DNA of 64,000 bases from Candidatus Gastranaerophilales bacterium. GTDB lineage: Bacteria; Cyanobacteriota; Vampirovibrionia; Gastranaerophilales; Gastranaerophilaceae. Shown piece by piece: positions 2,697 through 59,727 of the stretch (positions are counted from its first letter, which is position 1; every line of letters starts with the position of its first letter). The position numbers and the translations under genes are program-made. The stretch lies in NCBI GenBank assembly GCA_944323995.1, contig CALUUN010000004.1:62001-126000 (forward strand). The letters run 5' to 3'. The notes under the pieces were generated by a model. That model was not told the origin of the DNA and did no database searches. It saw only the letters and a program-made list of their open reading frames with translations.

Positions 2697-3867
2697 CTAT
2701 TCCGCTAAGCACACCGCCTGAAAGTCGCTGCTGCGGCGGGCGTTGCCCCGGGCAGTGAGAGTGGAGTAGAAGGTGCGGTTGCACGCGCTGCCCTTGCTGT
2801 CCTCCTCACTCGACCACAGCCAAAAGTCGGAGCCGGGAGAGGTGACAAATCCCATTGATACTGCAAGGTCGTTATCTCTTGCGCCGTAGCTTGATCCATT
2901 TGTTGCTATTTCTGTACCGGGGTACAAGTCTCTCGCTAATTGGTTTAACTGTTCCATACTCGGTAAACTTGAACCCATATCATGGCATGCTTTTACTGCA
3001 CCTGCCCAGTAGTCATTTTTGCCATAGGGTGAATACATGCAATATTGAAGACCATATTTACTCATAAATGCTAAGTCATCAGGATCACTTGTTGTTCCGT
3101 TTGTGTCACAAGCATTCCAAACATGTGGTGTTGGTATAAAAGGTGCAGTGAAACATGTTCCGTCACTTAGTTCTATTGCGCAGTTGCTGCCACCTAAACT
3201 CGCTACGTTTAGTCCTCGTAAATCTTTTTGCTGGGTATTAGGATTCTTAAATCCGTCTACGTCATATAATATTGCAAGACAATCTGTGCCTATGCCGGTT
3301 TCTCCTATTGTTATTACATCATTACTGAATTGGTTTTGTCTGCAATCAGGATTATATGCTATTACCCCGTTTACTCCGTTTGCAAATTGAACACCTACCG
3401 TATTTGTATCCCAATCTTCCTGTCCGAAGTTCTTTGCTTTTTTAATCTTTGACATATCAACTTCTTCATCACCCCAGGTTACGGTATCCGCAAAGCATGT
3501 TGTAATATCATCGTTATCACATATTCTTGTTATCTTAATATGTTTAGACAATTCATCAACAAACGCTTCTGTTGTTGTATAACCTGCCAACGTTCCTTGA
3601 ACATTCATAACTTTTAATGCTTCACCGAGTTTTCTCTGGAATACCTGTGATGCAGTGTTCCATGCTTTTGTTTGATAATTTTGCACTAAAGTCGGGATTG
3701 TTAATGCTGCTACTATTCCGATAATCGCTAAAGTTATCAACACTTCAGCTAAAGTGAAAGCTGATTTAACTTTTGTGGTTATTAAACTGCTGTGTTCAGC
3801 ATGTGAAGCTGATTTACAGCCCCCCCCCCCCACTCAAGGAGGTGATGTAGTCTGCGTTTTTGGCCAT
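2697..3867 (-). CDS. Type IV pilin-like protein A with C-type-lectin-like C-terminus; reading frame broken at a poly-G tract
   Basis: The body begins with the pilin/pseudopilin signature AFTLAEVLITLAIIGIVAAL, where the prepilin peptidase would cut between Ala and Phe, followed by a long globular region. The C-terminus (LPSMEQLNQLARDLYP, LWSSEE, QAVCL) resembles the C-type-lectin-like fold of retroelement targets. The only start with a proper Shine-Dalgarno (GGAGG, eight-base spacing) is ATG 3867, beginning MAKNADYITS. From there the frame runs into twelve G residues (plus-strand C at 3820-3831) and then a TAA. With 11 or 14 G it would join the pilin frame with a 36-residue leader. A GTG at 3833 keeps the body open but lacks a ribosome site. 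The body is about 70% similar to gene B by eye. Confidence 0.82.
2706..2831 (-). other. Putative variable region (retroelement-type) at the 3' end of pilin-like gene A
   Basis: In the last ~42 codons, roughly two thirds of the codons end in C (AGC, GGC, TGC, AAC, CGC, ACC, TTC, TAC, TCC, CTC, GCC, GAC). The GC content is far above the AT-rich remainder of the gene. The segment is bounded by conserved LWSS and QAVCL. Codons ending in C at exposed lectin-fold positions are what adenine-directed mutagenesis of AAC codons produces. No template repeat or reverse transcriptase is in the window, so this is inference. Confidence 0.5.
3820..3831 (-). repeat. G12 homopolymer in the pilin A leader (candidate phase-variation switch)
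   Basis: Twelve consecutive C on the plus strand (G on the coding strand) lie 33 bases after the ATG at 3867. Removing one G restores a continuous frame from the ATG into the pilin; with twelve, translation stops two codons past the tract. Such tracts change length by slippage. Confidence 0.75.
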
Positions 3868-3934
3868 TTGTTTTTCCTCCGTTTTCTCTTCCATAAAAAA
3901 ATCATATCAGAAATTTTTGATTTTGGCAACTGTT

Positions 3935-4096
3935 TTAATCTTCCGGAATATAAAAATCAGCCCTTTCCAATAATTCCCTTGTGTGTTCATAGCAGCAGCT
4001 ATTGCGGCATATCTGCTGGTATTCCCGTACAATGTTAAGTACATCGTCTACGCTCATTTTTATAAGCCTTCTTTTGCCTTCTATTATTCTTGCCAT
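3935..4096 (-). CDS. Small unknown protein, 53 residues
   Basis: A short frame, MARIIEGKRRL to the end, with a good AAAGGAAA Shine-Dalgarno seven bases before the ATG. It is charged and soluble, with two adjacent cysteines (NSCCYEH) and no membrane segment or signal peptide. It sits between the rpoC2 terminator and pilin-like gene A, on the same strand as the pilin and about 67 bases upstream of the pilin ATG, so the two could share a transcript. I do not recognise the family. Ribosome site, sensible amino-acid composition and position make it a probable gene. Confidence 0.55.
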   Translation of the reverse strand: MARIIEGKRRLIKMSVDDVLNIVREYQQICRNSCCYEHTRELLERADFYIPED

Positions 4097-14987: not shown

Positions 14988-16076
14988 TTAATCACCTAAG
15001 CACACCGCCTGATAGAAGTCGTGGTAGCGTGTGCCGTATCCCCGGTTAGTTCCAACTGAGGCGAATGCGCGGTAGCCAGCGTGTTCTTCGTCTATCACCT
15101 CACCCGACCACAGATTAAACCCTGCATCAGGAGAGGTGATAAGTCCCATAGAAACTGCAAGGTCATTATTTCTATCCCCAGGACTAGCATATCCATAGAT
15201 TGTGCTTATGGTTGTATTCGGATACAAATCTTTTGCTAATTGGTCTAATTGTGCCATGCTTGGTAGACTTGCTCCCATGTCTTGACATTCTTTTACTGCA
15301 CCGGCCCAAGAATCGTTAGTACCCTCACCACTGTCCAGACAAGATGGAATATTGTATTCGCTCATAAATGCTAAGTCATCCGGGTCATTTGATTCTCCGT
15401 CTAAATTACACCCTTTCCATACATATGGTGTTGGTGTGAACGGTGCTGTGAAACATGTGCCATCACTTAGTTCTATTGAGCAATTAATTGCGCCTGCCAG
15501 TTTGTTAACATTTAAATTATCAATATCTTTATCTGCCGTATTCGGGTTTTTAAACCCGTCTACGTCATATAGTATTGCCAGGCAATTTGTGCCTATGCCG
15601 TTTTCGCCTACTGTGATTACATCATTACTGAATTGGTTCTGCGTACAACTTGGATTGTATGCCATTACACCGTTTACACCGTTTGCAAATTGTACGGCCA
15701 CTGTATTTGTATTCCAGTTATTTTGTCCAAAGTGCTTTGCTTTTTTAATCTTAGACATGTCAACTTCTTCATCACCCCAGGTTACGGTATCTGCAAAACA
15801 TGTTGTAATATCATCGTTTTCGCATATTCTTGTTATCTTAATATGTTTAGAAAGTTCATCAACAAACGCTTCTGTTGTTGTATAACCTGCTAAGGTTCCC
15901 TGAACATTCATAACTTTTAATGCTTCACCGAGTTTTCTCTGGAATACCTGTGATGCAGTGTTCCATGCTCTTGTCTGATAATTCTGAACTAACGTCGGGA
16001 TAGTCAATGCCGCAACTATTCCGATAATCGCTAATGTTATCAGCACCTCTGCGAGCGTGAAAGCGTTTTTCTTCAT
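14988..16076 (-). CDS. Type IV pilin-like protein B with C-type-lectin-like C-terminus
   Basis: A 362-residue protein. The short leader MKKNA is followed by FTLAEVLITLAIIGIVAAL, the class III signal and membrane helix processed by prepilin peptidase; Ala and not Gly is at -1. Residues about 35-150 are almost identical to gene A. The C-terminal ~110 residues (DSWAGAVKECQDMG, LPSMAQLDQLAKDLYP, LWSGEV, QAVCLGD) look like a C-type-lectin-like fold. A good GGAGAG Shine-Dalgarno precedes ATG 16076. It is divergent from an XRE regulator with an 87-base AT-rich intergenic region, and followed by the repeat and terminator also found after gene A. Likely a minor pilin or pilus-tip adhesin (inference). 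Confidence 0.85.
   Translation of the reverse strand: MKKNAFTLAEVLITLAIIGIVAALTIPTLVQNYQTRAWNTASQVFQRKLGEALKVMNVQGTLAGYTTTEAFVDELSKHIKITRICENDDITTCFADTVTWGDEEVDMSKIKKAKHFGQNNWNTNTVAVQFANGVNGVMAYNPSCTQNQFSNDVITVGENGIGTNCLAILYDVDGFKNPNTADKDIDNLNVNKLAGAINCSIELSDGTCFTAPFTPTPYVWKGCNLDGESNDPDDLAFMSEYNIPSCLDSGEGTNDSWAGAVKECQDMGASLPSMAQLDQLAKDLYPNTTISTIYGYASPGDRNNDLAVSMGLITSPDAGFNLWSGEVIDEEHAGYRAFASVGTNRGYGTRYHDFYQAVCLGD
14997..15119 (-). other. Putative variable region at the 3' end of pilin-like gene B
   Basis: Aligned with gene A, conserved LWS and QAVCL (CAGGCGGTGTGCTTA identical at DNA level) bracket about 35 codons. Most amino acids differ there (GYRAFASVGTNRGYGTRYHDFY against NRTFYSTLTARGNARRSSDF), while the CGC, TTC, CGG and GAC anchor codons are kept. 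Differences fall at discrete codon positions, typical of targeted diversification. Confidence 0.5.
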
Positions 16077-58886: not shown

Positions 58887-59727
58887 ATGAAACAGTCAAA
58901 AGTGTTGCAAATCGCAAATCGGGGGGGCGACTCCTCTAAGCAGAATTAGCAAGGGTTTCGGCAAAGACGAAGCCGGAAATGCAGTTAGTGACAGCGCCGC
59001 AGCTTTACGGTATTATCAATCCGCAAACTATGCATTTACTCTGGCGGAAGTTTTAATAACAATAGGTGTAATCGGTATTGTAGCCGCAATTGCTATTCCG
59101 TCATTAATTAATCATTATAACGACAAGGTGCTTGAAACAAGATATCAACGCTCAAAAAACATACTCGTCAACGGCTACAAATTAATGATGTCAAAAGAGC
59201 AGGTCTTTGACATAAAAGATTTGTCCGTAATGAAATGCGGACAGAGGGATATTGATTGCATAATAAATGCACATAAAGAAGTATTCAAAATGATGCGTGA
59301 CTCATCAAACCCTGATATATCGGAAGCATTTGCAAGTGATTATACAATACCCGGAGAGCCGGAAAAAGGAGACCTCTCAAGTATGGTGTCACAATTGCCT
59401 ACATTCCAAACAACTGACGGCATGTCTTATATGGTTATGGGGTTAGATCGCAGCCGTGGCGCTGTGCAGCTATACGCGGATTTAAACGGTAAAAGCAAAC
59501 CGAATGTAATAGGTGAAGATTTATTTACGTTCGCAATCTATGGAAACGGTATTTTTGTTGATCTGACAGATAGTGAATTTTTTGGTAAACTTTCTTGTAA
59601 TATATTTACGCCGGGGGGTTGCACAACTGAAGGAAGCTGTCAGGCACTTAATAACGGATATTCGTGTAAAGGAGGTTTTGTTTGGGATGGCAATCGTTGC
59701 AGGTTTTCTGGCAACTACTGTCGTTAG
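58887..59727 (+). CDS. Type IV pilin-like protein D; reading frame broken at a poly-G tract
   Basis: The only start with a good ribosome site (AGAGGAG, eight bases) is ATG 58887 (MKQSKVLQIAN). It meets seven G at 58921-58927 and stops at a TAG 12 codons after the first G. The pilin body is open in the +1 frame from the tract onward: a polar leader ending NYA, then FTLAEVLITIGVIGIVAAIA. With six (or nine) G a single 279-residue protein with a 49-residue leader results. The C-terminus is cysteine-rich (CNIFTPGGCTTEGSCQALNNG, then CKGGFVWDGNRCRFSGNYC), suggesting disulfides. A terminator follows. Either phase-off, a recent pseudogene, or a base-call error. Confidence 0.75.
58921..58927 (+). repeat. 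G7 homopolymer in the pilin D leader (candidate phase-variation switch)
   Basis: Seven G at codon 12 after ATG 58887. Six or nine would restore the frame into the pilin signature; seven gives early termination. Confidence 0.65.

Follow-up and report, generated by a model that had tools for sequence, protein, structure and literature searches.

The window analysed here, a 64,000-nucleotide stretch of a Candidatus Gastranaerophilales genome, contains a pilin-like gene (gene A) whose upstream start codon is separated from the pilin reading frame by a homopolymer: a run of twelve C on the plus strand at 3820–3831, which is G12 on the minus strand from which the gene is read. This arrangement raises the question of whether the tract is an assembly error, a recoding or recombination element, or a switch that turns translation ON and OFF. 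We consider it highly probable that G12 is a slipped-strand translational ON/OFF switch, placed within that part of a type IV prepilin-like gene which encodes the leader to be discarded, and one of about 30 such switches in the genome of the window (G000, a 1.75-Mb Gastranaerophilales assembly in 35 contigs that is 99.9% complete).

The split reading frame of gene A

A GGAGG Shine–Dalgarno (SD) sequence, noted by a first-pass annotation of the sequence, lies at 3876–3880 (−) and is separated from the ATG at 3865–3867 by an 8-nt spacer. The ATG and the 11 codons that follow it form a pre-tract leader ORF (3832–3867, −; MAKNADYITSLS) belonging to the class I leader family, and the G12 tract (3820–3831, −), the proposed slippage switch of gene A, starts 36 nt after ATG 3867. 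At 12 G the ATG frame passes at once through GGGG and CTG to a TAA at 3814–3816 (−), the stop that had been annotated, giving MAKNADYITSLSGGGGL-stop, that is, MAKNADYITSLS-GGGG-L-stop. The pilin frame runs uninterrupted from the tract down to its stop codon at 2697–2699. It reads CKSASHAEHSSLITTKVKSA, the post-tract part of the prepilin leader (3759–3819, −), and continues as FTLAEVLITLAIIGIVAALTIPTL into the mature pilin-like protein (2697–3758, −), which begins FTLAEVLITL... and comprises 353 residues counted from F, plus the stop. The two frames are joined only if the tract length n = 2 mod 3, so that 11 or 14 G would indeed yield the continuous prepilin that the annotation foresaw.

Gene A carries a class III signal motif (F1, E5 and a hydrophobic stretch), and its prepilin motif matches the profiles PF07963 (23.6 bits against a cut-off of 21.2) and TIGR02532 (23.5 bits against 16.3); geopilin/PilA chains match the protein over about residues 1–50. 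The predicted leader, about 36 aa in gene A and far longer in some relatives, is of unusual length. For G9 in the window, dinucleotide shuffles give an expectation of 0.10 matches; four overlapping matches are seen, a count reached by 0 of 100 shuffles.

The window also contains other pilins. On the plus strand, a pre-tract leader ORF (58887–58920; MKQSKVLQIAN) runs into a G7 tract (58921–58927) that is OFF, and behind it lies a mature pilin-like protein of 230 aa (59035–59724); sister copies of this second tract-bearing pilin have G9 tracts, one ON (L051) and one OFF (L063). Paralogue B (14991–16076, −) is tract-free and of the constant type, with MKKNA, FTLAEV... and a mature part 76% identical to that of gene A. 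The first codons of the gene A leader (MAKNA) do resemble MKKNA, as had been pointed out, but this likeness is weak evidence because the pre-tract peptide varies completely by leader class, with no third-codon-position bias (differences of 779/643/655 by codon position). We also considered conservation of the pre-tract peptide as proof of translation; it was unsupported, as the peptide bears no codon-position signature of selection, a point that also weighs against the switch reading.

If translation instead started in or after the tract, tract length would matter little. The ORF-finder start of gene A, GTG 3833, lies at the tract edge, and in some copies an in-frame GTG (n = 12) or ATG (AAATGGGG, class II, n = 9) overlaps that edge. 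However, such starts lack an SD sequence and are present only at certain lengths, and GTG 3833 is absent from many sister copies. Furthermore, L049, L050, L059 and, for their first motifs, L061 and L066 contain no start codon at all from the in-frame stop onward to the motif. Instead, an SD-ATG precedes the tract in nearly every case: among 158 tracts preceding an open prepilin leader, 155 have an SD-ATG with an open frame 12–52 nt upstream, an arrangement seen for 2 of 158 when the opposite strand is read and at 3.4% of positions chosen at random. An internal start is scarcely credible on these grounds, and the ON/OFF contingency layout that the first-pass annotation proposed for gene A is supported and generalises to other loci.

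Between rpoC and gene A, the minus strand at 3935–4096 holds a small ORF (MARIIEGKRRLIKMSVDDVLNIVREYQQICRNSCCYEHTR...), and similar small ORFs occur in the rpoC-end neighbourhood of three further loci (L275, L283 and L286). In the rpoC neighbourhood of 12 congeners, one of them cut at a contig end, no tract-bearing pilin was found at the same place and in the same orientation. A search of phage DNA returned no match.

Long G tracts across the genome and the order

The gene A locus is not special but belongs to a genome-wide system. G000 contains 31 tracts of at least 9 G, each of which is found on the coding strand of a long prepilin leader, about 25–40 nt downstream of an SD-ATG. A prepilin motif is visible downstream of 28 of the 31, and the other three are at contig ends and have the same leader as sister copies. 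The gene A pilin has at least 51 relatives within G000, in which the FTLAEV motif occurs 80 times. When all motif hits were examined, 33 were found behind a tract of 7–13 G, corresponding to 29 genes (four with two motifs), and 40 tract-free pilins had an ordinary short SD-ATG leader of the paralogue B type; 9 hits were cut by contig ends or had no clear start. The same examination identified three ON alleles, two of which are one duplicated copy. Class I leaders belong to 10 genes, gene A and its sister copies, with tracts of 10, 12 and 13 G, and class II leaders have G9 in 12 of 12 copies. G000 also encodes a prepilin peptidase (PF01478 at G000:C5), and a single protein at G000:C2 with two PF00482 matches is a PilC-type platform protein.

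The assembly of G000 breaks in or beside tract-bearing leaders at the right ends of C3, C9, C14, C25 and C28 and at the left end of C11, and the true count of switch genes is therefore probably higher. Homopolymers and repeated leaders are difficult for short reads, and such contig ends would also fit an assembly artefact in which tracts that are really in frame were recorded with a length off by one. This is very improbable: the errors would have to lengthen the tracts of certain classes (11 to 13 G) and shorten those of others (9 G), identical lengths recur across independent genomes, and the tract, its position and the split frame are independent of exact length.

We searched for the arrangement in related genomes with a strict pattern, G9 followed by a prepilin motif within about 10–70 nt, so that genome counts are lower bounds. 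The pattern is present in at least 56 of 146 genomes of the order and at least 14 of 40 genera, and 54 of the 56 pattern-bearing genomes belong to the window's own family; a reversed-pattern control gave 0 matches among the 146 genomes. Among 292 genomes drawn from the phylum, about 160 fall outside that family, and none of these has the strict pattern. Poly-C tracts on the coding strand occupy the same leader position in congeners. The named relatives are Candidatus Gastranaerophilales metagenome assemblies, including chick29__bin14 and the BRZ series, and the tract recorded there is a consensus. One congener (G003) has 341 overlapping G9 matches, far above the other congeners, and one of its loci (L117) has a G12 for which the sequence inspected showed neither an SD-ATG nor a pilin.

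Frame, length and the excess of OFF alleles

Loci fetched from many genomes yielded 184 distinct tracts of at least 9 G or C, with a length spectrum biased against shorter tracts because the relatives' loci were mostly picked by a tract of at least 9. We scored the 160 that have an SD-ATG and open frame before the tract and an open prepilin leader after it. Lengths are those of the assemblies, in which repeated leaders may be homogenised. The first-pass annotation had named a fixed tract of 12 without in-frame variants among relatives as a refutation; we found varied lengths and in-frame alleles. Two leaders that differ by 1 nt across 97 nt of flank carry 10 G (L001) and 12 G (L045). Within single leader classes, MTSLNN-G9 is OFF and MTSSNN-G10 is ON, the poly-C alleles MLKKVVTKAVQIV-C9 and MLEKVVTKAVQIL-C10 are OFF and ON, respectively, and a further class has G11 OFF and G10 ON. 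Such pairs, with the ON allele a single unit away from the common OFF allele, recur in several classes and are the outcome expected of slipped-strand switching.

Across the scored set, 19 of 160 tracts are in frame (ON) and 141 are OFF, corresponding to 12% ON against the 33% expected from free switching (p = 7e-10 assuming independence). When each of the 62 leader clusters is counted once, the ON share is 12.5% (95% interval 6–20%, p = 4e-4), and the OFF excess also holds in G000. Translation from the SD-ATG in the two OFF frames would meet a stop after a median of 3 and 4 codons, compared with 7 in off-frames inside mature genes.

An excess of OFF lengths could also be the working state of the genes if RNA polymerase slipped, or ribosomes shifted frame, on the G run and so gave a small, steady in-frame product. 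The size of the excess is consistent with this proposal, as is the dominance of one OFF length in several classes (G9 in class II, and G10 in 11 of 14 members of the largest G055 leader cluster). A programmed frameshift needs one fixed offset, however, and offsets 0, 1 and 2 are all seen, also inside single leader classes. Among the 141 OFF tracts, 95 need +1 nt and 46 need −1 nt, and both OFF frames occur even within class I (12 against 10 or 13 G). True ON alleles exist within the same classes, and poly-C serves at the same place. We thus regard programmed slippage during expression as unlikely.

We return to slipped-strand switching as the preferred reading. Replication slippage would alter the tract by one or a few G, and every third length alone would join the SD-ATG frame to the pilin frame, with the other two leading to a stop within a few codons. 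The prepilin motif suggests that the leader is cut off by a prepilin peptidase, in which case the tract glycines would leave the mature pilin unaltered. With about 30 independent switches, of which about a tenth are ON, each cell would show few of its pilins; single cells would thus display differing small sets of adhesive pilins, with most genes OFF at any time. Selection against making many pilins together may explain the OFF excess, as may a population consensus of loci that are each ON in a minority of cells. The low ON share together with the uniformity of some classes could stem from slow switching, assembly homogenisation or expression-level slippage. We also considered mismatch-repair loss as the cause of the long tracts; this was ruled out because G000 has MutS, as do 143 of the 146 genomes drawn from the order. 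Given MutS, slippage need not be fast.

Mature proteins, variable heads and known systems

The mature ORF reaches at least 200 aa in 120 of 141 OFF genes, some of the short ones being cut by locus ends, and OFF–OFF pairs have a median dN/dS of 0.235. The genes are thus mostly intact and, like the mature part of gene A, under purifying selection, indicating that OFF genes are used at times. By region, OFF–OFF dN/dS rises from 0.09 N-terminally to 0.46 C-terminally, which suggests a conserved filament part and a faster-evolving variable head. The head of gene A (2700–3185, −; residues 192–353) has no Pfam match; its model is confident (pLDDT 94) and suggests a possible C-type-lectin-like fold. 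Its top neighbours in a structure search are nearly all C-type-lectin-fold families, none individually significant (best E = 0.07), and include the Bacteroides fimbrial protein 4eps, the link modules of LYVE-1 and TSG-6, FGE, EgtB, Legionella Lcl and CLEC. The N-terminal half of the full-length model is poor (mean pLDDT 68), and this model gave weak structural matches only. The approximately 30 switches of G000 all appear to serve one dispersed pilin family with heads that vary and, as modelled, look lectin-like.

The mature part of gene A is closest (87%) to that of L054, which has the other leader class, suggesting that leaders and heads recombine into mosaics. Such mosaics, and the many near-identical leaders, would also be produced if the tract were a recombination or G-quadruplex element driving pilin gene conversion, comparable to the Neisseria pilE G4, with the frame incidental. 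In Neisseria pilE/pilS, pilin diversity comes from many copies through gene conversion between silent cassettes and one expression locus. Each Gastranaerophilales copy, in contrast, has its own SD, start and switch, with no single expression site, and congeners have poly-C on the coding strand at the same position. A conversion element would also leave the frame link and the early stops unexplained, and we find it distinctly unlikely as the role of the tract. For the slipped-strand switch, we lean towards a wider reading in which an entire bacterial family of gut Melainabacteria maintains a mostly silent repertoire: dozens of pilin-type adhesin genes per genome would each have their own G or C tract in the leader that is cut away, selection would keep all but a few per cell OFF, and shifting lectin-like combinations would arise without a shared expression site or recombinase.

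G-tract phase variation is best known from pathogens. The Neisseria Opa family has CTCTT repeats in the signal-peptide region and pilC has poly-G; as proposed for Gastranaerophilales, translation of an exported protein is switched by a repeat close to the 5′ end of its gene, and several loci of one surface family switch independently. Unlike Opa and pilC, the Gastranaerophilales loci would switch the pilin-like subunit itself, through a tract in the class III (prepilin) leader. In Campylobacter jejuni the tracts belong to a wide range of gene families, with surface-sugar enzymes accounting for many, and are not dedicated to one pilin family as in G000. With 29 poly-G/C phasome loci, C. jejuni NCTC11168 (PMC4965091) resembles G000 in having G/C tracts by the tens and of similar length. 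Each genome of Neisseria meningitidis, N. gonorrhoeae and N. lactamica has about 15–19 poly-G tracts, distributed among many gene families (PMC5953494), whereas all long G tracts of G000 serve one family, with about 30 loci in an unrelated gut commensal lineage. Closest in setting are the sortase-dependent pili of Bifidobacterium breve, a gut commensal with the same two-ORF anatomy, in which poly-G lies between a start ORF and the pilin ORF (bbr_0113 and bbr_1889). At bbr_0113 lengths are mixed, with G11 at about 37% and G12 at about 60%; in-frame alleles make pili, and the ON state is enriched in mice (PMC9187656). The B. breve system differs: a genome has one or two such loci, the pili are Sec/LPXTG sortase pili of a Gram-positive, and there is no dispersed repertoire.

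The mechanism itself is thus already known from Neisseria Opa/pilC, Campylobacter and Bifidobacterium pili. What appears to be new is that long G tracts are given over almost entirely to one pilin family, that they lie in the prepilin leader, how many of them a genome has, the lineage in which they occur and their bias towards OFF. A search of papers readable without subscription found nothing linking Gastranaerophilales, Vampirovibrionia or Melainabacteria to pilus phase variation, an absence that is not proof. In an uncultured, common gut lineage related to cyanobacteria, long G tracts seem to be reserved for a single pilin family, at about 20–30 switches per genome and possibly more. This predicts cell-to-cell pilus diversity in a commensal and offers a natural test of what keeps the majority of loci in a switchable family OFF. 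It also carries a warning for annotation, in that gene callers miss or mis-start tract-bearing pilins.

Some leaders have two FTLAE motifs in tandem (L056, L060, L061 and L066 in G000, and L014 and L017), separated by translated intergenic repeats (HCEERSDVAIA and NPLPLGEGGTQCRVRV in G000). These double-motif leaders look like a repeat-element insertion or a fusion of two pilin 5′ ends inside the leader. Just downstream of gene A, the window at 2100–2640 contains dense intergenic repeats of the CCCTCCCCCCTTGAGGGGGAGGG type and a G7 at 2244–2250, and repeats related to these appear translated in other pilin leaders.
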